A stretch of 64,000 bases of DNA from Labilibaculum filiforme (GTDB lineage: Bacteria > Bacteroidota > Bacteroidia > Bacteroidales > Marinifilaceae), in the NCBI RefSeq assembly GCF_002843315.1, contig NZ_MVDD01000016.1, positions 1 to 64,000 of the forward strand, written 5' to 3'. How positions within the stretch are numbered: the first letter of the stretch is position 1; each line of letters starts with the position of its first letter. A program made the position numbers and the translations under genes. This document shows positions 4,086 to 13,801 of this stretch, one piece after another. The notes under the pieces are model-generated. The model was given only the letters and a program-made list of their open reading frames with translations, was not told where the DNA came from and did no database searches.

Positions 4086-5066
4086 TTATCTTCTGGCTTT
4101 ATCTAATAATTTTAAATCAGCCAATGCAATTGCAGTTGCGGCTTCAATAATTACTGGTACTCGTAATGCTATGCAGGCATCGTGTCTACCTTCAATTAGT
4201 AAATCTTCTACTTCTCCTTTGGCAAAATTCATGGTTTTCTGATTAATGCCAATCGATGAGGTTGGTTTAATAGCCACACGAAATACAAGTTCGTTTCCGT
4301 TGGTAATTCCTCCATTAATTCCTCCTGCATGATTGGTTTCTGTTTTTCCTGATGCATCAATAAAATTATCGTTGTGCTCCGAACCTTTCATTTTAGCAGC
4401 AGCAAAGCCAGAACCAAATTCGATTCCTTTGGTTGCAGGGATAGCAAAAATAAGGTGAGAAATCATCGATTCTACCGAATCGAAGAAGGGTTCGCCATAT
4501 CCAATTGGAAGATTGTTAGCGCGACATTCTACAATACCTCCAACCGAATCGTGTGCAAGTAAAGCTTCTTCAACAGCAGCGTCAAAATCTGTTTTACCAC
4601 CAACTTCAGTTAGTTTGGCATCAATTTTCACATTGCCTAATATCTTTTTGGCAACCACGCCTGCCGCAACAATACCAAGGGTAATTCTTCCTGAAAAATG
4701 ACCACCTCCCGTATAATCATTGTGTTCTCCAAATTTATGTTTCGCAACAAAATCGGCATGTCCAGGGCGTGGACTGTCTAATAAATTACTGTAGTCTTTC
4801 GATTTAGTATTTTTGTTGTGGAATAGGATAATTAAAGGGGCACCAGTAGTTTTTCCTTCAAAGGTACCACTTAGTATGCTTGGCATATCTGCTTCAATTC
4901 GCGGGGTTGTACCTCTCGCTCCAGCCTTTCTACGACTTAAATCCGGTAAAAGGTCTTCATCTGTTAAGTCGATTCCCGATGGGCATCCGTCGATGGTAAT
5001 TCCAACTCCTTTGCCATGAGATTCTCCAAATATGCTAAGTCTAAATATTCTTCCGAAATTATTCAT
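4086..5066 (-). CDS. aroC: Chorismate synthase
   Basis: 326 residues. It converts 5-enolpyruvylshikimate-3-phosphate to chorismate using reduced FMN, the last shikimate-pathway step. Visible family signatures are FGESHG near residue 13, the RRKAGARGTTPRIEAD region (about 45-60), the GHADF segment, TGGGHFSGR, and NHAGGINGG toward the C-terminus. Many orthologues have about 350-360 residues; this one is somewhat shorter, but all core blocks seem present. It is the last gene of the leftward aromatic operon, 54 bases after the DUF523 gene, and is followed by a terminator. The operon is expected to be controlled by the tandem attenuators at 11482-11765. Confidence 0.95.
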   Translation of the reverse strand: MNNFGRIFRLSIFGESHGKGVGITIDGCPSGIDLTDEDLLPDLSRRKAGARGTTPRIEADMPSILSGTFEGKTTGAPLIILFHNKNTKSKDYSNLLDSPRPGHADFVAKHKFGEHNDYTGGGHFSGRITLGIVAAGVVAKKILGNVKIDAKLTEVGGKTDFDAAVEEALLAHDSVGGIVECRANNLPIGYGEPFFDSVESMISHLIFAIPATKGIEFGSGFAAAKMKGSEHNDNFIDASGKTETNHAGGINGGITNGNELVFRVAIKPTSSIGINQKTMNFAKGEVEDLLIEGRHDACIALRVPVIIEAATAIALADLKLLDKARR

Positions 5067-5120: not shown

Positions 5121-5570
5121 TTATTTTTCATTGTCAAGTAGTGAATGAAAATTTACTTCATTTCGAATTTGCACTCCATTTTTTGCCAGTAATTCGGCAG
5201 TAAGGCCATTTCCTTTTCGATGTTTTCCAGTGAAACTGCCATCATAAATTTTTCCATATCCGCATGACGGACTGTTGGCTTTTAAAATTACCATGTTGCA
5301 ATTTAAGGCTTTTGCAACATTTATGACTATTTCGGCACCTTTTGTAAATTGGGATGTATAGTCGTTTTTATCTTGGTCAATCACCTTTAATTCATTATTT
5401 ACTTGTACAATTTCGCAAGATATACGAGGCGTACCTAGGCCTCCTAATACCTCTGGACAAAGAGCGAGGGCTTTATTTTCCAGTACAAGTTGCTTAATTT
5501 CTGGAATTTCGTTGCTTTTGCCATCGTACCTGCATTCACAACCGGCTAAACAAGCGCTAACTATTATCAT
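5121..5570 (-). CDS. DUF523 family protein inside the aromatic operon
   Basis: 149 residues. The N-terminus VSACLAGCECRYDGKSN, the CPEVLGGLGTPR block and the NSPSCGYGKIYDG block are the conserved Cys-containing motifs of DUF523. The function is unknown; the conserved cysteines suggest metal or redox chemistry (inference). It lies between aroA (87 bases upstream) and aroC (54 bases downstream) on the same strand. No terminator separates them, so it is probably cotranscribed with the shikimate genes. Whether this placement means a role in aromatic metabolism is open. Confidence 0.85.
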   Translation of the reverse strand: MIIVSACLAGCECRYDGKSNEIPEIKQLVLENKALALCPEVLGGLGTPRISCEIVQVNNELKVIDQDKNDYTSQFTKGAEIVINVAKALNCNMVILKANSPSCGYGKIYDGSFTGKHRKGNGLTAELLAKNGVQIRNEVNFHSLLDNEK

Positions 5571-5656: not shown

Positions 5657-6934
5657 TTATACAAACTGACTATCGAAATAAAATTGAGCAACTCCGCCAC
5701 CTATTTTTCGTAAATCCGTAAAGAATTCTGGATACGATTTGGCTACGCATTCGTGCTGACCAATTTCAATCGGACTTGGAGATGCTAATGCGGTAACCGC
5801 AAGTGCCATGGCAATTCGATGATCGTTATTACTTTTTGCTAATCCTCCTTTTACTTTGCCACCGGGAATAATCATTTCATCACCTTCGATGCGAATTGGA
5901 ACTCCGAGCTTTAAAAATTCTTTTTTTAGAACGAGACCACGATTACACTCTTTATATTCTAATCGGTGAACTCCTGTAATTCTGGTTTCTCCAGCACAAT
6001 GAGCTGCTAAAGCAACTAAAGGAGGGAAAAGATCAGGACTATGTGTTGCATCAAAATCAAAGGCATTTAAGCCTTTCTTCTCTACTGTTAAATTGTTTCC
6101 TTCCCATTTAATGGAAGCTCCGCATTTTTGCAAGGCATCTAAAATTGCTTTGTCAGCTTGATAAGAATCAGGATTCATATGCTCCAAAGTAATACTTCCT
6201 GTTAATGCTCCAGCAACTAAAAGAGGAGCTGCCGAACTCCAATCTGCCTCAATTGTGTACTCCGTTGGTTGATAGATTTGATTTCCTTTTATATGAAAGT
6301 TCTCGTAATTCTCATGCTCTATTTCAATACCGAAATGCTTTATTAGATCCAGAGTCATGTTGATGTAAGGAATACTTTTTAAGTCTTTTACTTTCAGTGT
6401 TGTATCTTCGTCTCGTAAGGGCAGAGCCATTAATAGACCTGTGAGGAATTGAGAACCAAGCGATCCGTCAATTTTTGCAAAATTACTCTTGTAGCCACCT
6501 TTTATACGAATGGGTAGAAATCCTTTGCCAGGATTTTGACAATCAATACCCAAATTTTCCAATCCTTCGATAATGTTCTGAACGGGTCTTTTTAAGATGC
6601 TTCCAGTTCCAGTAATTTCCATTTCTTCTGGTTTTAACGCAACAATCGGCGAGAACATCCTTAATGAAAGTCCCGATTCTCCAACATGAATGCTTTTGGG
6701 AGCTTCGCTTACTTTGGAAGTTATCTCTAAAGAATTTTCCTTTTTGGTGACAACCGAACCCATTCGCTGGATGATATCTGTTGCGGCATCCGCATCTTCA
6801 CATTTACAAGGATTGTGAATTACAGAGTTTCCGTTAGCCAACATGGTAGCGGCTAAAGCTCTTTGCATCATGCTTTTCGAGGAAGGAGGGGTTAGTTTTC
6901 CTTTAATGGTTGAGGATTGGATTCGAACTCTCAT
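5657..6934 (-). CDS. aroA: 3-phosphoshikimate 1-carboxyvinyltransferase (EPSP synthase)
   Basis: 425 residues, normal length. It transfers the enolpyruvyl group of PEP to shikimate-3-phosphate. The N-terminal LTPPSSKSMMQRALAA matches the substrate-binding PxSKSxxxRAL pattern, and GESGLSLRMFSPI matches the GNAGTAxR-like PEP-binding block. Near the C-terminus, SNNDHRIAMALAV is the family DHRxAM motif. It lies 12 bases downstream of aroB and upstream of DUF523 in the aromatic operon. The start ATG at 6934 fits the family N-terminus. Confidence 0.95.
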   Translation of the reverse strand: MRVRIQSSTIKGKLTPPSSKSMMQRALAATMLANGNSVIHNPCKCEDADAATDIIQRMGSVVTKKENSLEITSKVSEAPKSIHVGESGLSLRMFSPIVALKPEEMEITGTGSILKRPVQNIIEGLENLGIDCQNPGKGFLPIRIKGGYKSNFAKIDGSLGSQFLTGLLMALPLRDEDTTLKVKDLKSIPYINMTLDLIKHFGIEIEHENYENFHIKGNQIYQPTEYTIEADWSSAAPLLVAGALTGSITLEHMNPDSYQADKAILDALQKCGASIKWEGNNLTVEKKGLNAFDFDATHSPDLFPPLVALAAHCAGETRITGVHRLEYKECNRGLVLKKEFLKLGVPIRIEGDEMIIPGGKVKGGLAKSNNDHRIAMALAVTALASPSPIEIGQHECVAKSYPEFFTDLRKIGGGVAQFYFDSQFV

Positions 6935-6946
6935 AATTTTGGTTTT

Positions 6947-7990
6947 TTAAAGGGCTGATTTAGGATTGGCACAAAGTCCAATCACCATGGTTTTTAGTTC
7001 TTCAATAGGAATGGTAACAATGGTGGCTTCTCCTATTTTTTTTAGTAGAATAAAATCTATCGTTGATCGATTTTTCTTTTTGTCTTTAATTAAATATTGA
7101 TTAATAGTTTCCGCAGAAACATCATGCTGTAATGGTAATCCAAAGTCATTTAATAAATTATTGACCTTTTTAGTGTTATCCTCACTTAATTCACACAAAT
7201 CTTGAGATATCCGGCAAGCTAAATTCATTCCTACAGATATCGCTTCTCCGTGAGTTAAATCAGAATTATTTTCAATAGCATGACCAATAGTATGGCCGAA
7301 ATTTAATTTCTTACGTTCTCCTTTTTCAAGAGGATCGCCTTCTACCACTTCAGTTTTAATGGAAACAGCTCGGTATACTAAATCTTCCATCAAATTAGGA
7401 TCTAAATTCAGTAATGCTTCCCGATTTTCCTTTAGAAAATAGTACAGATTTTCATCTTTAATGAAAGCGTGCTTAATTACTTCCCCAAATCCACTTCTAA
7501 CTTCCCGTTTAGGTAAGCTTTGTAGCAAAACCGGATCGCAAATCACAAACCTTGGAGGATTAAACCTGCCAATCATATTCTTTAGTTTGCCAAAATTGAT
7601 TCCATTTTTGCCACCAACACTCGCGTCTACCTGAGATAGTAGGGAGGTACTAATAAAGCCGAACTCAAGTCCTCTCATAAAAATAGAAGCAACAAAACCA
7701 GTAACATCAGAAACCAAACCGCCTCCCATTCCCAACAAAAAACTATTTCTGTCAGCACCTCTATCTAGCAATTGCTCAATAATTTTTTCGACCGTTAGCC
7801 AGTTTTTATTTCCTTCGCCACAACCCATAACGATATAATCGAATTGCTTAACAAAGTCGGAATAATGTTTATATATATTCTCATCGCAAATCAGAAAGCA
7901 TTTCTTCTCGGGGAGATACTTGCTAAGGTTGAGATAAGATTCTCCAACATAAATACTGCTGTTTTGTTTTTCGATGTGTATGGTCTTCAT
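6947..7990 (-). CDS. aroB: 3-dehydroquinate synthase
   Basis: About 347 residues from the ATG at 7990. It cyclises DAHP to 3-dehydroquinate with NAD and a divalent metal. Family blocks seen are GGGLVSDVTGFVASIFMRG (NAD binding), TSLLSQVDASVGGKNGIN, and the metal-binding GHTIGHAIE. An in-frame ATG at 8047 would add 19 residues (MRLIVSHNL...) that do not look like the family and come from a TCTC-rich spacer, so 7990 (MKTIHIEKQ) is preferred. It sits between the DAHP synthase-chorismate mutase gene and aroA in the aromatic operon. Confidence 0.93.
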   Translation of the reverse strand: MKTIHIEKQNSSIYVGESYLNLSKYLPEKKCFLICDENIYKHYSDFVKQFDYIVMGCGEGNKNWLTVEKIIEQLLDRGADRNSFLLGMGGGLVSDVTGFVASIFMRGLEFGFISTSLLSQVDASVGGKNGINFGKLKNMIGRFNPPRFVICDPVLLQSLPKREVRSGFGEVIKHAFIKDENLYYFLKENREALLNLDPNLMEDLVYRAVSIKTEVVEGDPLEKGERKKLNFGHTIGHAIENNSDLTHGEAISVGMNLACRISQDLCELSEDNTKKVNNLLNDFGLPLQHDVSAETINQYLIKDKKKNRSTIDFILLKKIGEATIVTIPIEELKTMVIGLCANPKSAL

Positions 7991-8076
7991 TGTTTTAAAG
8001 AGATGTGAGATAGGAGATATTAGATTATGAGAGACGATCAATCTCATCTCTCATTTCTAAATTCTCAAACCTATTG

Positions 8077-9162
8077 TTATGAGTTCATGATTTCTTCCTG
8101 CTGATTGATTGATTCTTGGTGGATGGCTTTGAATAAGCTATTAATGAATTGTTCACTAAATCCTTTTTTCTTTCCATTTTCCATGCTTTTTTCTAAAATA
8201 GATCCCCAACGTTTGTTTTGTAAAACGGTGATGTTATTTTCTTTTTTATAGTGACCAATAGTTTTGGCAACCTGCATGCGATTTTCCAATAACTCTAATA
8301 ATTTTTGATCGAAATCATCAATTAAATGTCTTAATTCGCCAAGGGTGTTGTCAACCAGTTCATTACCAGCTTCTGGGTCGCGAAGTACCAAGTTGGCCAA
8401 AAGTTCTTTAAGTGCTACTGGGGTTAATTGTTGTTTGGCATCACTCCAAGCTTCTTCTGGCTTGCAATGCGATTCAATAATTAATCCTTCGTAGTTTAAA
8501 TCCATCGATTTTTGAGCTACTTCATCTAATAAATCACGGTCTCCTGTAATATGACTAGGATCGCAGAATATTGGCAGTTGTGGCATTCTTCTCTTTAATT
8601 CAATTGGAATTTGCCATTGAGGATCATTTCTGTATTTTAATTTCTGGTAGGTCGAAAATCCACGGTGAATTGCGGCTAATCGTGTTAGTCCAACAGCATG
8701 AAGTCTTTCTATTGCACCCATCCATAATTCTAGATCGGGATTGATAGGATTTTTTACTAAAACTGGAATGTCGTGACCACGTAAAGCATCAGCAATTTCC
8801 TGAACAGCAAATGGATTAACTGTAGTTCTTGCTCCAATCCATAAAATATCTACGCCTGCACCTAAAGCTAGTTCAACGTGACGGGCATTGGCAACTTCTG
8901 TTGCAGTAATTAATCCGGTTTCTTCTTTTACTTTTTGCAACCAGATCAATCCTTTTGCTCCAATTCCTTCAAAACTATTTGGACGGGTACGTGGTTTCCA
9001 AATTCCGGCACGGAAAATTGGAATACCCGCTGCTTTAATGCCACGTGCAGCATCCATTACTTGTTCTTCAGTTTCTGCACTACAAGGTCCTGCAATAACA
9101 AGAGGGCGCGTACTGACATCTATTGGCCAGCTACTTAGTGGTTTGATATCCATGTCTTTCAT
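8077..9162 (-). CDS. aroF: Bifunctional DAHP synthase / chorismate mutase
   Basis: 361 residues. Residues about 15-265 form a class I (KDPG aldolase-like) DAHP synthase, with PLVIAGPCSAETEEQ, FRAGIWKPRTRPNSFEG and ITGDRDLL visible. It condenses PEP with erythrose-4-phosphate, the first shikimate step. Residues about 270-355 form an AroQ-type chorismate mutase (LRHLIDDFDQKLLELLENRM, then K-ENNITV), which makes prephenate. In related fusions the mutase domain also mediates feedback inhibition (family knowledge). It is flanked by tyrA upstream and aroB downstream on the same strand. The symbol aroF is a family-level label; Bacteroidota naming varies. Confidence 0.93.
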   Translation of the reverse strand: MKDMDIKPLSSWPIDVSTRPLVIAGPCSAETEEQVMDAARGIKAAGIPIFRAGIWKPRTRPNSFEGIGAKGLIWLQKVKEETGLITATEVANARHVELALGAGVDILWIGARTTVNPFAVQEIADALRGHDIPVLVKNPINPDLELWMGAIERLHAVGLTRLAAIHRGFSTYQKLKYRNDPQWQIPIELKRRMPQLPIFCDPSHITGDRDLLDEVAQKSMDLNYEGLIIESHCKPEEAWSDAKQQLTPVALKELLANLVLRDPEAGNELVDNTLGELRHLIDDFDQKLLELLENRMQVAKTIGHYKKENNITVLQNKRWGSILEKSMENGKKKGFSEQFINSLFKAIHQESINQQEEIMNS

Positions 9163-9311: not shown

Positions 9312-10211
9312 TTATGCTCCAGTCTTAATTTTTGATGCTTGTTGTATGGTTTCTTTCTCGTTTTTTTCTTTCTGATCAAGAACTCTTCTAATATCGTTGG
9401 CTTCAAATATTAAATCATTAATGCCATTTAAATCATCCTTCTCAATTAAATCCTTAAATTGTTGAAGTTGGTCAATATATTTTTGAAGTACTTTTCCAAC
9501 ATTCTTTTTGTTTTGCTGAAAAATTGGAGTCCACATTTCAGCCGAACTTTTTGCTAAACGAACGGTAGAATCAAATCCACCACTAGCTAATTCAAAAATG
9601 TGTTTGTCTGCTTTTTCTTTGTGCAATACGGTTAAGGATAGAGCGAAAGCACTAATGTGCGATAAATGAGAAACATATGCAGTTTGTCTGTCATGTACTT
9701 CGGCATCCATAAACACACATCTCATTTTCAAACAATGAAACATTTCGCTAATCAGTTGAACTGCTTTTTTGTCGGAATCTTCGGGATTACAAATAATGGA
9801 ACATTTTCCATCGAATAATCCTGAATGTGCAGCCTGTGGTCCTGAAAATTCAGTTCCGGCCATTGGGTGAGCTGGTACAAATTGACTTCTTTTAGGATGA
9901 TTTGCAATCGACTCTATTAATTGTTCTTTGGTAGATCCTAAATCACTTACTATTTGATGATGAACTAGATCCATAATTTTTGGCAGCACTCTTAAGCAGG
10001 CATCTACGGGAATGGCTAGAAGAACCAAATCGGCGGCTTGCACTGCAGTTGTTAAATCCTGAATTTCATCAATTAAACCTAACTTTTTAGCAGCGTGAGC
10101 ATTAAGGGTGTTGTTGTCAACACCAATTACCTTGTTTACGAATCCTCTTTTTTTCAAATCAAGAGCTATCGAACCTCCAATTAATCCCAATCCTATTACT
10201 GATAGTATCAT
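9312..10211 (-). CDS. tyrA: Prephenate dehydrogenase
   Basis: 299 residues. It makes 4-hydroxyphenylpyruvate, the tyrosine precursor, by oxidative decarboxylation of prephenate with NAD(P). A Rossmann fingerprint VIGLGLIGGSIALDL lies at residues 4-19, DLGSTK near 90, and the HPMAGTEFSGP substrate block around 115. The protein has no fused chorismate mutase; that activity is fused to DAHP synthase in the next gene. It lies 84 bases downstream of the aminotransferase gene, and the 149-base gap to the DAHP synthase gene shows no terminator. Confidence 0.93.
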   Translation of the reverse strand: MILSVIGLGLIGGSIALDLKKRGFVNKVIGVDNNTLNAHAAKKLGLIDEIQDLTTAVQAADLVLLAIPVDACLRVLPKIMDLVHHQIVSDLGSTKEQLIESIANHPKRSQFVPAHPMAGTEFSGPQAAHSGLFDGKCSIICNPEDSDKKAVQLISEMFHCLKMRCVFMDAEVHDRQTAYVSHLSHISAFALSLTVLHKEKADKHIFELASGGFDSTVRLAKSSAEMWTPIFQQNKKNVGKVLQKYIDQLQQFKDLIEKDDLNGINDLIFEANDIRRVLDQKEKNEKETIQQASKIKTGA

Positions 10212-10295: not shown

Positions 10296-11447
10296 CTATT
10301 TTTTAATTCGTTTTATGGCTTCTTCAATTACAGCCTCGCTACTACATAAAGAAATGCGAATGTATTTATCGCCTTGATCTCCAAATATTCCTCCTGGAGT
10401 AATAAATACTTTTGCTGTATTGAGTATTTTGTCACTCAATTCGTAGCCATCTTTGTATTTCTCTGGAATTGCAGCCCAAACAAACATCCCGCCCTGATCT
10501 TCTCTGGGAGTGCATTCAATTAGTTTCATTAGTTGGAAAACTAATTTACGTCTGGTTTTATACACTTTATTAATAGATTCGTACCAACTTTTATCCTGCG
10601 ATAAGGCTTTAATTGCAGCTTGTTGAACTGGGTAAAACATCCCAGAATCCATATTGGTTTTTACCTTTAATACAGGCTCTAACATTTCGGCTTTTCCGCA
10701 AATCATTCCAACTCTCCAGCCCGGCATATTGTGCGATTTGCTCAGCGAGTTTAATTCAATACAACAATCTTTTGCTCCTTCAATGCTCATAATACTCATT
10801 GGAGAGTCATTTAAAATAAAGCTGTAGGGATTGTCATTCACGATTAATATTTTGTATTTTCTTCCAAAAGCAACTATTTTTTCTAGTAATTCTCTACTTG
10901 CTCGAGCTCCTGTAGGCATATGAGGATAGTTGACCCACATAATTTTCACCTTGCTTAAATCTCTTTTTTCCAGTGCCTCAAAATCGGGTTGGTAATTATT
11001 CTCTTCAATCAAAGGATAAGAAACAATTTTTCCGCCTAATAGGTTGGTTACCGATGTGTAAGTAGGATAGGAGGGATTTGGAATTAATACTTCATCACCT
11101 TCATTCAAATAAGCCAATGAGGTTACCATGATTCCTTCTTTAGATCCCATTAAGGGTAAAATTTCGTTGGCCGGATTTAAATTTACATTGTAGAAGGTTT
11201 TGTACCATTTCGAAAATCCTTCTCGTAAAGCAGGAATTCCTTGGTAGGATTGGTATCCGTGACTTTTAGGATGAGAACAGGCTTCTTTAAGCATTTCCCA
11301 AGTATCTTCAGAGGGAGACATGTCCGGATCACCTATTCCTAGGTTAAGAACTTTTACTTTACCTTCGTTAAGTTTTGCTATTTCTTTTAGTTTTATAGAG
11401 AAATAGTACTCCTTTATTCCCTGAGTTCTGTTTGCTGGTTGAATCAT
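10296..11447 (-). CDS. PLP-dependent class I/II aminotransferase, first gene of the aromatic operon
   Basis: 383 residues. Fold-type I aminotransferase with PLP lysine Lys237 in LNSLSKSHNMPGWRVG and the upstream NPSYPTY and NDNPYSF segments that contact the cofactor. Placed at the head of a Tyr/Phe operon, it probably transaminates aromatic keto acids or prephenate (inference from context). Other members act on aspartate or LL-diaminopimelate. The start codon is only about 35 bases downstream of the second attenuator terminator, so transcription of this gene needs read-through of both attenuators. In Bacteroides the comparable gene is often preceded by prephenate dehydratase; that gene is absent here. 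Confidence 0.88.
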   Translation of the reverse strand: MIQPANRTQGIKEYYFSIKLKEIAKLNEGKVKVLNLGIGDPDMSPSEDTWEMLKEACSHPKSHGYQSYQGIPALREGFSKWYKTFYNVNLNPANEILPLMGSKEGIMVTSLAYLNEGDEVLIPNPSYPTYTSVTNLLGGKIVSYPLIEENNYQPDFEALEKRDLSKVKIMWVNYPHMPTGARASRELLEKIVAFGRKYKILIVNDNPYSFILNDSPMSIMSIEGAKDCCIELNSLSKSHNMPGWRVGMICGKAEMLEPVLKVKTNMDSGMFYPVQQAAIKALSQDKSWYESINKVYKTRRKLVFQLMKLIECTPREDQGGMFVWAAIPEKYKDGYELSDKILNTAKVFITPGGIFGDQGDKYIRISLCSSEAVIEEAIKRIKK

Positions 11448-11481: not shown

Positions 11482-11514
11482 AAAAAAAATCCTGCTCGTT
11501 AGGAACAGGATTTT
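11482..11514 (-). terminator. Attenuator terminator 2 of the aromatic operon
   Basis: Twelve-bp stem with one G-U pair: 5' arm AAAATCCTGTTC (11514 to 11503), five-base loop, 3' arm GAGCAGGATTTT (11497 to 11486), then a T run to 11482. It lies 11 bases after the stop codon of the second leader peptide and 35 bases before the aminotransferase start. A competing pairing is possible between GGCGGGAU inside the leader (11556 to 11549) and AUCCUGUU in the terminator 5' arm (11511 to 11504). That pairing has eight pairs, three of them G-U. Confidence 0.85.
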
Positions 11515-11525
11515 AGTTATACTTT

Positions 11526-11618
11526 TTACTTAAAATTAGGTATAAGGCATCCCGCCCGGTCGTTGTTGTACCAGAAATAAAAATAATAATATCGAAATGC
11601 TAATCCTAAATTGGTCAT
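11526..11618 (-). CDS. Leader peptide 2 of the aromatic operon (Tyr/Phe/Trp run)
   Basis: A 30-residue ORF from ATG at 11618 to TAA at 11526-11528. Residues 8-17 read FRYYYFYFWY, with eight consecutive aromatic codons (10-17): five Tyr, two Phe, one Trp. Such a run matches classical leader peptides, where ribosome stalling on scarce charged tRNA decides between terminator and antiterminator. The ORF lies directly before terminator 2 and directly after terminator 1. No family match is expected for so short a peptide; the call rests on composition and position. The 13 residues after the aromatic run cover the proposed antiterminator arm. Confidence 0.82.
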   Translation of the reverse strand: MTNLGLAFRYYYFYFWYNNDRAGCLIPNFK

Positions 11619-11634
11619 TGTAATTTTTTATATG

Positions 11635-11668
11635 AAAAAGGTCCTACCTGATGGGCAAGACCTTTAAA
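11635..11668 (-). terminator. Attenuator terminator 1 of the aromatic operon
   Basis: Outer stem AAAGGTC (11665 to 11659) with GACCTTT (11643 to 11637), inner CC-GG pairs, then five T on the minus strand. The segment UCUUGCCC (11660 to 11653) overlaps its 5' arm and inner stem. That segment is perfectly complementary to GGGCAAGA (11705 to 11698), which follows immediately after the stop codon of leader peptide 1. The two structures exclude each other, as expected for terminator and antiterminator. Confidence 0.83.
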
Positions 11669-11705
11669 TGTATCTGTTCGAGTTGTTACATATCAATTCT
11701 TGCCC
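11653..11705 (-). promoter_or_regulatory. Antiterminator pairing of attenuator 1
   Basis: On the minus-strand transcript GGGCAAGA (11705 to 11698) begins at the first base after the leader-1 stop codon. It is the exact reverse complement of UCUUGCCC (11660 to 11653). A ribosome that finishes the leader would cover the first arm and allow the terminator. One stalled on the early aromatic codons would leave it free to pair and disrupt the terminator. The mechanism is inferred from layout; the 8-bp complementarity is seen directly. Confidence 0.75.
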
Positions 11706-11765
11706 TTATCGTTGTGGATAATAGAAATACCAGAAATAATAAAAGTAAGTACTGAATGTTTTCAT
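11706..11765 (-). CDS. Leader peptide 1 of the aromatic operon (Tyr/Phe/Trp run)
   Basis: A 19-residue ORF, MKTFSTYFYYFWYFYYPQR, with ATG at 11763-11765 and TAA at 11706-11708. Eleven of 19 residues are aromatic and codons 7-16 are ten in a row (six Tyr, three Phe, one Trp). It starts about 30 bases after a near-perfect Bacteroidota promoter and is followed by a mutually exclusive antiterminator and terminator pair. The natural reading is a ribosome-mediated attenuator sensing charged tRNA-Tyr and tRNA-Phe, perhaps also tRNA-Trp, for the operon that makes these amino acids. Expression itself is inferred, not shown. Confidence 0.88.
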   Translation of the reverse strand: MKTFSTYFYYFWYFYYPQR

Positions 11766-11798
11766 TGTAATAATCAATTGTTTCATTATTGTCTGCAC

Positions 11799-11829
11799 CA
11801 AATGTAGGAATTATTTCTTATCCTGCAAA
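11799..11829 (-). promoter_or_regulatory. Promoter of the aromatic operon
   Basis: On the minus strand TTTG (11829 to 11826), 19 bases, then TACATTTG (11806 to 11799). This is an exact match to the Bacteroidota -33/-7 pattern TTTG-N19-TAnnTTTG. Transcription would start near 11790, about 25-30 bases before leader peptide 1. Confidence 0.75.
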
Positions 11830-12170: not shown

Positions 12171-12203
12171 TTTGGATTTTGAATAAATTATTAATTAGAT
12201 TTG
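12171..12203 (+). promoter_or_regulatory. Promoter of the trp operon
   Basis: TTTG (12171-12174), 21 bases, then TAGATTTG (12196-12203), fitting the Bacteroidota -33/-7 consensus. Transcription would begin near 12210, only about 15 bases before the leader peptide ATG. The leader would therefore be the first thing translated. Confidence 0.7.
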
Positions 12204-12224
12204 TAGGAAGAAAAAAGACAAAAG

Positions 12225-12293
12225 ATGATTGGAATGATTAACAAATATTGGTGGTGGCATAGCTGTGAACTCTCAAAACCAGAGCAGAGGTGA
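12225..12293 (+). CDS. trpL: trp operon leader peptide with a triple Trp codon run
   Basis: A 22-residue ORF, ATG at 12225 and TGA at 12291-12293. Residues 7-12 are KYWWWH: three consecutive TGG codons after a Tyr codon. It lies between the trp promoter and a strong terminator 48 bases after its stop, the layout of a classical trpL attenuator. The predicted effect is that scarcity of charged tRNA-Trp stalls the ribosome at codons 9-11 and favours read-through into trpE. I could not identify a convincing antiterminator arm by eye. The symbol is by analogy of position and role, not homology. Confidence 0.85.
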   Translation: MIGMINKYWWWHSCELSKPEQR

Positions 12294-12340
12294 CCCCCGT
12301 ATGTGCAAAAATTAGTTCCTAAAAATATAAGAACATAGCA

Positions 12341-12376
12341 AACGGCCTACTGATACTCAGTAGGCCGTTTTTTTTT
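12341..12376 (+). terminator. Attenuator terminator of the trp operon
   Basis: Thirteen-bp perfect stem (AACGGCCTACTGA at 12341-12353 with TCAGTAGGCCGTT at 12357-12369), three-base loop, then an uninterrupted T run to 12376. It lies after the Trp-rich leader and 25 bases before the trpE start, so full-length trp mRNA requires read-through. Confidence 0.92.
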
Positions 12377-12400: not shown

Positions 12401-13801
12401 ATGATAAAGTTTAAATACTTAAAAAAAGAATTACTAGCCGATGTAATTACTCCGGTGAGCATGTATCTAAAATTGAGAGATCGGTTTCCTGGTGCAATTC
12501 TATTGGAGAGTTCGGATTACCACAGTCCGGAAAATGCCAGTTCGTTTATTGCCTTGGAACCAATTGCCAGCATCACTTTAAGAGATGGACAATTGATAGA
12601 AGAAATTGAAGGCAAAAAAGAAGTTTGTGATGCAAGAGGCAAAGGCAAACGCTTTGTGTCTGGGAAGCTGAAAGACTTTGTTGGTAAGTTCGATTTAGAA
12701 GGAAAGGAAAATGTGCCAAAGGCAAATGCACTGTTTGGTTATACCACTTACGATGCAGTTCCTTACTTCGAGGATTTATATTTTGATTTGAACAAGAAGC
12801 AGTCGGGCATTCCTCAAATGTGTTATTCCCTTTATCGTTTTATTATTGAGGTAAATCATTTCAATAATACCTTGAAAATTATTGAGTTAGTTAAAAATGG
12901 TGACGATTCCAGAATACGTGAAGTAGCTGATTTATTGAATAATAGAAACCTTCCTTCTTTTACTTTTTCTTTGAATGGGGAGGAACATTCTAATATGGAT
13001 GATGAAACCTATATAAATATGGTGACACAGGGGAAAAAGCACTGTAAGAGAGGTGATGTATTTCAAATTGTTCTTTCTCGACAGTTTTCTCAAGCTTATA
13101 AAGGTGATGATTTTAATTTGTATCGTGCTTTACGATCAGTTAATCCATCGCCTTACTTGTTTTATTTCGATTACGGATCGTTTCGGATCATGGGCTCATC
13201 GCCCGAGGCACAGATCGAAATAAAAGATAAGAAAGCATACATTCACCCAATTGCAGGTACCTTCCGAAGAACTGGCGATGCTGTAAAAGATGCCGAATTG
13301 GCGAAAGAGTTACTAAAGGATGAAAAAGAGCAGGCTGAACATGTGATGTTAGTGGATTTGGCAAGAAATGATTTGAGCCGCGATGCACAGAATATCAAAG
13401 TAGAAACTTTTTGTGAGGTGCAGTACTTTTCGCATGTAATTCATTTGGTATCTAAGGTTTCGGGTGAACTTCCTAACGGATATAATCCTTTTCAGTTAAT
13501 GGGAGATACCTTTCCGGCTGGAACCTTATCGGGTGCACCAAAATACCGTGCTATGCAGTTAATTGATCAGTATGAACCAACAGCTAGAGGTTTTTATGGC
13601 GGATGCATTGGTTCTTTGGGTTTTAATGGGGAAGTGAATCAAGCGATCATGATTCGTAGTTTTATGAGCAAGGACAATCAGTTGTATTTTCAGGCTGGAG
13701 CCGGAGTGGTTGAAAAATCGAAAGAGGTGAACGAGTTGAACGAAGTGAGTAATAAATTAGCAGCCTTGCGAAAAGCAATGGAATTAGCGCAAACTATATA
13801 G
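12401..13801 (+). CDS. trpE: Anthranilate synthase component I
   Basis: 466 residues. It makes anthranilate from chorismate with ammonia delivered by TrpG. The N-terminal ILLESSD (about 32-38) is the LLES motif of the Trp feedback site. C-terminal chorismate-binding blocks include IMGSSPEAQIEI, HPIAGTFRR, EHVMLVDLARNDL and FPAGTLSGAPK. It is the first structural gene of the trp operon, 24 bases after the attenuator T run. trpG starts three bases after its stop codon. Confidence 0.96.
   Translation: MIKFKYLKKELLADVITPVSMYLKLRDRFPGAILLESSDYHSPENASSFIALEPIASITLRDGQLIEEIEGKKEVCDARGKGKRFVSGKLKDFVGKFDLEGKENVPKANALFGYTTYDAVPYFEDLYFDLNKKQSGIPQMCYSLYRFIIEVNHFNNTLKIIELVKNGDDSRIREVADLLNNRNLPSFTFSLNGEEHSNMDDETYINMVTQGKKHCKRGDVFQIVLSRQFSQAYKGDDFNLYRALRSVNPSPYLFYFDYGSFRIMGSSPEAQIEIKDKKAYIHPIAGTFRRTGDAVKDAELAKELLKDEKEQAEHVMLVDLARNDLSRDAQNIKVETFCEVQYFSHVIHLVSKVSGELPNGYNPFQLMGDTFPAGTLSGAPKYRAMQLIDQYEPTARGFYGGCIGSLGFNGEVNQAIMIRSFMSKDNQLYFQAGAGVVEKSKEVNELNEVSNKLAALRKAMELAQTI

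Follow-up and report, generated by a model that had tools for sequence, protein, structure and literature searches.

Leader-peptide attenuation of amino acid operons is a textbook mechanism, which has been described mostly in Proteobacteria and Actinobacteria. In the trp, phe, and his attenuators of Escherichia coli, a short open reading frame (ORF) with regulatory codons and an alternative between terminator and antiterminator are located before the cognate operon, and the trp attenuator also has a protector hairpin (segments 1:2). In this study, we analyzed a leader region of Labilibaculum filiforme in a window of 64,000 nucleotides (the whole stretch of DNA analyzed). It has in common with the E. 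coli type the ORF with a codon run, the terminator/antiterminator pair, and the position upstream of a cognate operon. It differs by two predicted complete attenuators, mixed Tyr/Phe/Trp runs of 8–10 codons, a Bacteroidota promoter, and the lack of an Rfam match, since Rfam covariance models including T-box gave 0 matches in the window at the gathering threshold.

Leaders with two attenuators are known as well. The Salmonella mgtCBR leader carries mgtM and mgtP as tandem attenuators for ATP and proline on one transcript (PMC3641672). According to the part of that article available to us, the common feature is a pair of leader ORFs that serve as tandem attenuators within a single RNA, whereas the mgtCBR stem-loops are unlike intrinsic terminators and its signals differ; the leader studied here has predicted intrinsic terminators and a nearly identical codon set at both stages. 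Also, the mefA/msrD operon has two attenuators, an arrangement termed a double-lock against basal expression (PMC10314930). There, as far as the accessible portion of the text describes it, the second attenuator regulates msrD exclusively and the system is macrolide-responsive, while here both stages precede the first gene and carry amino acid codons. The metE leader of B. clausii contains riboswitches in tandem and two presumed intrinsic terminators (PMC3641672, in part); it likewise places two sensing elements in series, but these are riboswitches for two different metabolites without leader peptides. In several Gammaproteobacteria, the rimP leader has a second terminator in tandem (PMC2965389). 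Two terminators in one leader are thus shared, but rimP is not an amino acid operon, and the excerpts of that article describe no aromatic leader peptide.

For Bacteroidota, clues to leader-peptide attenuation in flavobacteria were reported, along with a conserved, structured 5′ element that precedes pheA (PMC9723704). This Flavobacteriaceae element shares the gene context with our loci, but no tandem, no reading of aromatic codons, and no relation to operon content is described in the sections of that article at hand. Long 5′-UTRs of B. thetaiotaomicron contain short ORFs reminiscent of leader peptides, according to passages of PMC7366714, and none of five leader-related terms occurs in a ribosome-profiling paper on F. 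johnsoniae (PMC6847099). We recognized no description of tandem aromatic attenuators in Bacteroidota in the open-access PMC literature, as represented by partial texts excluding supplementary tables. The author of an earlier note on this DNA knew of no description of the arrangement in the phylum; this holds for the tandem in that literature, but leader-peptide attenuation itself was already hinted at in the accessible part of PMC9723704. Attenuation and two-attenuator leaders being known, what was not found in the literature searched is a recurrent version with the same signal at both stages and two terminators.

The leader is located on the minus strand, to which all following coordinates refer unless stated otherwise. 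Its elements are arranged 5′ to 3′ as promoter-like site, ORF1, terminator 1, ORF2, terminator 2, and an aspC-like gene that starts at 11447. The promoter-like site TTTG-N19-TACATTTG (11799–11829) ends 33 nt 5′ of the ORF1 ATG and fits the Bacteroidota -33/-7 consensus, for which TAnnTTTG with TTTG near -33 is given in the portion of PMC7366714 available. A sigma-70 promoter scan yielded 5 sites with 4.9 expected, i.e., was at chance, and the sigma-70 model is not informative for Bacteroidota promoters. ORF1 encodes MKTFSTYFYYFWYFYYPQR (11706–11765; ATG at 11765, stop at 11706) and contains 10 uninterrupted aromatic codons (YFYYFWYFYY) at 11747–11718. An ATG at 11786 was rejected as its start, because it is not kept in all relatives and would be located nearly at the promoter. 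ORF2 encodes MTNLGLAFRYYYFYFWYNNDRAGCLIPNFK (11526–11618; ATG at 11618, stop at 11526) with 8 uninterrupted aromatic codons (YYYFYFWY) at 11591–11568.

Each ORF is followed by a predicted intrinsic terminator, i.e., a hairpin and a T tract: terminator 1 at 11638–11664 (-15.3 kcal/mol, z -5.1) and terminator 2 at 11486–11514 (-14.6 kcal/mol, z -6.5). Of these two, a simple terminator scan of the window detected terminator 2 alone. The earlier note had described two such ORFs with aromatic runs of 10 and 8 codons, each with a terminator, before an operon, and the predicted sequence features bear this out; its interval 11482–11765 takes in ORFs and terminators, but should be widened to about 11829–11480 to include the promoter. 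A competing antiterminator is present at both stages, with the 5′ arm starting 10–12 nt past the aromatic run. At stage 1, the 5′ arm GGGCAAGA (11698–11705) abuts the ORF1 stop codon, and the 3′ arm TCTTGCCC (11653–11660) overlaps the 5′ arm of terminator 1. At stage 2, the 5′ arm GGGCGGGAT (11549–11557) is located within the ORF2 tail, and the 3′ arm ATCCTGTTC (11503–11511) overlaps the 5′ arm of terminator 2. When the upstream arm is included in the fold, the preferred structure is the antiterminator in attenuator 1 (whole stretch -18.5) and the terminator in attenuator 2 (whole stretch -19.6).

The downstream cluster starts with the aspC-like class I/II aminotransferase gene (10296–11447; PF00155), followed by tyrA for prephenate dehydrogenase (9312–10211; NF006307 above cut-off), aroG/CM for DAHP synthase fused to chorismate mutase (8077–9162; PF00793, PF01817), aroB for 3-dehydroquinate synthase (6947–8047; TIGR01357 above cut-off), aroA for EPSP synthase (5657–6934; PF00275), and aroC for chorismate synthase (4086–5066; PF01264). 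Between aroA and aroC, a gene of the 2-thiouracil desulfurase family (5121–5570; PF04463) is placed within the aromatic cluster. All genes are on the same strand with gaps of 12–149 nt, and they are presumably co-transcribed. By its genes, the cluster is predicted to lead to chorismate, the precursor of all three aromatic amino acids, and into the Tyr branch; family matches thereby agree with the operon function proposed in the earlier note. The pheA gene for prephenate dehydratase is located elsewhere in the genome, outside the aspC-tyrA cluster.

Judged from these features, both stages appear to have the hallmarks of an attenuator, namely a run of codons for product amino acids, an intrinsic terminator before the first gene, a mutually exclusive antiterminator past the run, and a cognate operon, and two apparently complete attenuators seem to be under one promoter. 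Very probably, two ribosome-mediated transcription attenuators in series on one leader RNA control the aspC-tyrA-aroG/CM-aroB-aroA-aroC cluster. The leaders would be translated, and under shortage of charged tRNA-Tyr, -Phe, or -Trp the ribosome would stall within the aromatic run at each stage. The segment 10–12 nt downstream could then pair with the terminator's 5′ arm, which would let RNA polymerase read on. With all three tRNAs charged, the ribosome would reach or pass this segment, the terminator would form, and transcription would stop. As the polymerase would have to pass one stage after the other, their basal read-through levels would approximately multiply. This would be a double lock with a multiplied dynamic range of regulation, and either stage alone could keep the operon shut.

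The earlier note had named the conservation of both aromatic runs and both hairpins as a check, and the loss of the frames among relatives as a refutation; frames, runs, and hairpins are all kept. In 59 genomes searched, 15 had a close aspC (82–100% identity), i.e., the focal genome and 14 relatives spread over five genus groups, and ORF1 and ORF2 are present in series and in frame in 15/15. The box TACATTTG is invariant across the 15 aligned leaders. The further comparisons are based on an alignment (A1) of 14 distinct leaders, the leader of L004 being identical to that of L003. The run codons differ among the leaders chiefly at their second and third positions, through silent substitutions or exchanges between Tyr and Phe: the first, second, and third positions are variable in 1, 4, and 4 of the 10 codons of ORF1 and in 1, 5, and 2 of the 8 codons of ORF2. 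Non-aromatic residues are found in 4/140 run positions of ORF1 and 3/112 of ORF2. In the terminators, pairing amounts to 96.7%, and both sides of a pair have changed in 3 cases, which was matched by 1/500 shuffles. For the antiterminators (GGGCAAGA with TCTTGCCC; GGGCGGGAT with ATCCTGTTC, the latter extended by TTATAC with GTATAA), 95.9% of positions are paired, compared to 39.5–47.5% after sliding by 1–3 columns. Both-sided changes are absent from the antiterminator helices of the 14 leaders, and their covariation score was matched by 26/500 shuffles. Antiterminator 2 is maintained through wobble changes, e.g., from G-U to G-C; antiterminator 1 has a mismatch at its second pair in 5/14 rows and at its outermost pair in 2/14, and its score is weak in L008–L010.

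Since the leaders are A+T-rich, TTT and TAT codons would arise easily, and the aromatic runs could be a by-product of base composition without any regulatory reading. We regard this as extremely improbable in view of the chance controls and of the match between codon content and operon content described below. A strict leader criterion (ATG ORF of 8–45 codons with ≥7 F/Y/W within 10 codons) gave at least one leader upstream of the operon in 99/131 loci and two in 33/131, one of the 33 (L073) being a mis-anchoring artefact; a later count of 251 loci uses tblastn anchoring instead. Dinucleotide-preserving shuffles contained one leader in 7/2620 cases and two in 0/2620, and the reverse strand met the same definition in 0/131 loci. 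Also, a terminator of ≤ -8 kcal/mol was found after 253/260 leaders (254/260 under slightly different limits) versus 14/520 shuffled stretches. A loose phylum-wide pattern of two Trp-containing runs matched 135/395 genomes, but the reversed control also gave many matches, and this pattern was not counted.

The later count started from 263 pheA/aspC loci anchored by tblastn, of which 257 had at least 420 nt upstream and 251 were non-duplicate; because the loci come from similarity-ranked or group-sampled searches of Bacteroidota, the sample is not random. No leader was found in 41 of the 251 loci, one in 160, and two in 50, and with 41 loci lacking a leader by the criterion, the device is therefore not universal. 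The 50 tandem loci comprise 14 focal and 36 non-focal ones, the latter including six Chitinophaga loci, Hymenobacter mucosus, and several Bacteroidales, so the tandem arrangement extends beyond this genome and this operon. The named Bacteroides and Phocaeicola loci have a single leader, as do the named Flavobacterium loci; among the latter, L099 has a second weak frame, and L118 and L121 fall below the strict criterion, L121 being F. psychrophilum with one aromatic leader ORF. In Cytophagales, aspC-first operons of Pseudarcicella, Flectobacillus, Arcicella, and relatives (L059, L061–L064, L071) carry short Tyr-run leaders from YYYY to YYYYY; these six loci miss the strict criterion and are scored there as having no leader.

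The 50 tandem loci also bear on the number of transcripts. In 7500 bases before ORF1 and 4527 bases between the ORFs, the strict promoter motif was found 5′ of ORF1 in 29/50 loci and between the ORFs in 0/50, and the -7 box alone in 41/50 and 1/50, respectively, the box before ORF1 being absent in 9/50. On the reverse strand of the upstream stretch, used as control, the strict motif was found in 2 loci and the -7 box in 9. The near confinement of the box to the region 5′ of ORF1 suggests that both leaders are on one transcript. It also argues against the upstream unit being an independent gene for a small RNA that has a terminator to itself, followed by an ORF2 with its own promoter. Terminator 1 would indeed end a transcript of about 160 nt, but in view of the promoter distribution we consider such a gene very improbable.

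Both terminators were detected in 48/50 tandem loci (L056 and L132 are without a clear first one), and in 27/33 two-leader loci of the earlier, narrower search. Over all leaders, the 5′ arm of the antiterminator starts a median of 9 nt past the run (IQR 7–11), and the pairing was better than all but ≤3 of 60 shuffles in 236/254 attenuators. In tandem loci, 42/48 first and 48/50 second stages passed this test, and 8/98 scored stages failed to beat the shuffles (L010, L206, L210, L213, L215, L223, L231, L232). The arm sequences differ among groups, while pairing is kept. The tail past the run has ≤5 aa for ORF1 in 42/50 tandem loci and >5 aa for ORF2 in 42/50, and the geometry of the two stages therefore differs. 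The distance from ATG to ATG is 126–197 nt in 49/50 and 260 nt in one.

Mapped onto a FastTree phylogeny of 228 AspC proteins, the tandem state requires a minimum of 14 changes, of which 9 are forced by well-supported branches, with gain and loss indistinguishable. Such frequent turnover, together with the single leader in 160/210 leader-bearing loci, would be expected if one stage alone were functional and the other were a decaying or newly arising copy in a lineage switching between types. However, frames, runs, terminators, and antiterminators persist in the focal genome and its 14 relatives with pairing largely kept, and the spacing and the tail pattern recur in tandem loci of other groups. 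A single working stage is hence improbable in our estimation. Tandem leader-peptide attenuators are the best reading, because the frames are conserved, two terminators and two antiterminators are predicted behind one upstream promoter, and the codons follow the operon content.

Concerning the latter, Tyr codons outnumber Phe codons in the leaders of 23/32 loci without pheA versus 20/165 with pheA, where absence stands for no tblastn match to the focal PheA within 400 nt, so that a divergent pheA could be missed. For independent pairs on the tree, 7.4 of 10 changed in the same and 0.1 in the opposite direction (median p 0.016, range 0.004–0.22). Loci of the L251 type, with pheA and scored as lacking aspC, were excluded as evidence, as their aspC may be too divergent for the search. 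Trp codons were counted only next to F/Y/W, a rule fixed after the leaders but before the downstream genes had been seen. As a sign test of Trp against aroA/B/C had 3 independent pairs among the named loci, the downstream stretches of 60 further loci were added, comprising all 32 eligible loci with leader Trp and 28 drawn from 71 without; L044, L170, L240, and L244 were too short and were dropped from the test. Trp beside the run was found in 26/30 loci with aroA/B/C downstream versus 16/75 without (Fisher 6e-10, inflated by related loci), and in 12/15 versus 12/41 when only the 56 newly fetched loci are considered (p 0.0016). The tree offers no more than 5 independent pairs for this relation, 3.2 of them in the same and 0.1 in the opposite direction, so that it is not significant there. 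No association was seen on the tree between the presence of Trp and the absence of pheA. Taken at sequence level, leader codons appear to follow operon content, being Tyr-rich without pheA and including Trp with aroA/B/C, the second relation not being significant on the tree.

The same codon data bear on whether the stages integrate different signals, e.g., with Trp read by one stage alone, or with one stage sensing tRNA charging and the other overall translation. Trp is present in both ORFs at 23 of the 50 tandem loci, in ORF1 alone at 10, and in ORF2 alone at 3; in six Chitinophaga loci it is confined to ORF1, and this pattern and the different stage geometry noted above would suit such an integration, which may apply in those Chitinophaga loci. 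Against it, the two ORFs of the tandem loci show no significant difference in Phe share (p 0.09; 0.31 in the 36 non-focal loci), both focal runs contain Tyr, Phe, and Trp, and both leaders before the focal pheA are Phe runs. We therefore hold a division of signals to be rather unlikely. Multiplying repression is preferred because the two focal stages share one mixed set of codons, and the two pheA stages are alike in their Phe codons.

In the focal clade, the stand-alone pheA is likewise preceded by two Phe-run leaders in series, at 7/7 loci (L159–L165). The first leader contains RFFFF and the second is, e.g., MRTVFFNNWFFIFFFFKREKNRILMK, with one Trp in 4/7 and one Tyr in one locus (L165). Each leader at the 7 loci is followed by a hairpin with T tract and a candidate pairing arm. 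At L163, the focal genome's own pheA (contig C3, about 300 kb), the second hairpin is weak (-7.6) and the second leader starts with GTG. As the first pheA leader is below the strict criterion, these loci were scored as single in the 251-locus count.

Leaders for other amino acids were observed in the same genome. The divergent trp operon (trpE at 12401, plus strand) has a leader of its own at 12171–12368, with a promoter-like site TTTG-N21-TAGATTTG (12171–12203, plus), a leader ORF MIGMINKYWWWHSCELSKPEQR with three Trp codons (WWW; 12225–12293, plus), and a candidate hairpin followed by T's (12342–12368, plus). A single His leader, MIFTAIHHHHHYTYQSVS, is located before hisG (contig C3; L292 positions 1363–1419, minus). 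The genome-wide search for His runs gave 59 matches versus 23 in the reversed control; three were examined, and two of them, on contig C5, were spurious, lying inside a 392-codon ORF on the opposite strand.

Beyond the focal leader, a more general reading appears plausible to us, if somewhat short of probable. It would be a modular two-stage device built from two attenuator types, an upstream one with a short tail, in which the stop codon abuts the antiterminator, and a downstream one with a long tail, in which the frame runs through the antiterminator. The pair would have been gained or lost many times, and its codons would be a fast-evolving readout of the operon genes, with Phe accompanying pheA, Tyr its absence, and Trp aroA/B/C. 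If this is true, the two geometries may give differing response curves, and the leader would be a graded double lock and not a simple repeat.

Widespread and repeatedly doubled attenuation in Bacteroidota would extend the mechanism to a major gut and environmental phylum. The natural occurrence of none, single, and double states in related species would allow the benefit of adding a second attenuator to be tested. Likewise, the correspondence of leader codons to operon genes would be a natural experiment, in which regulatory specificity is rewritten as genes enter or leave the operon.
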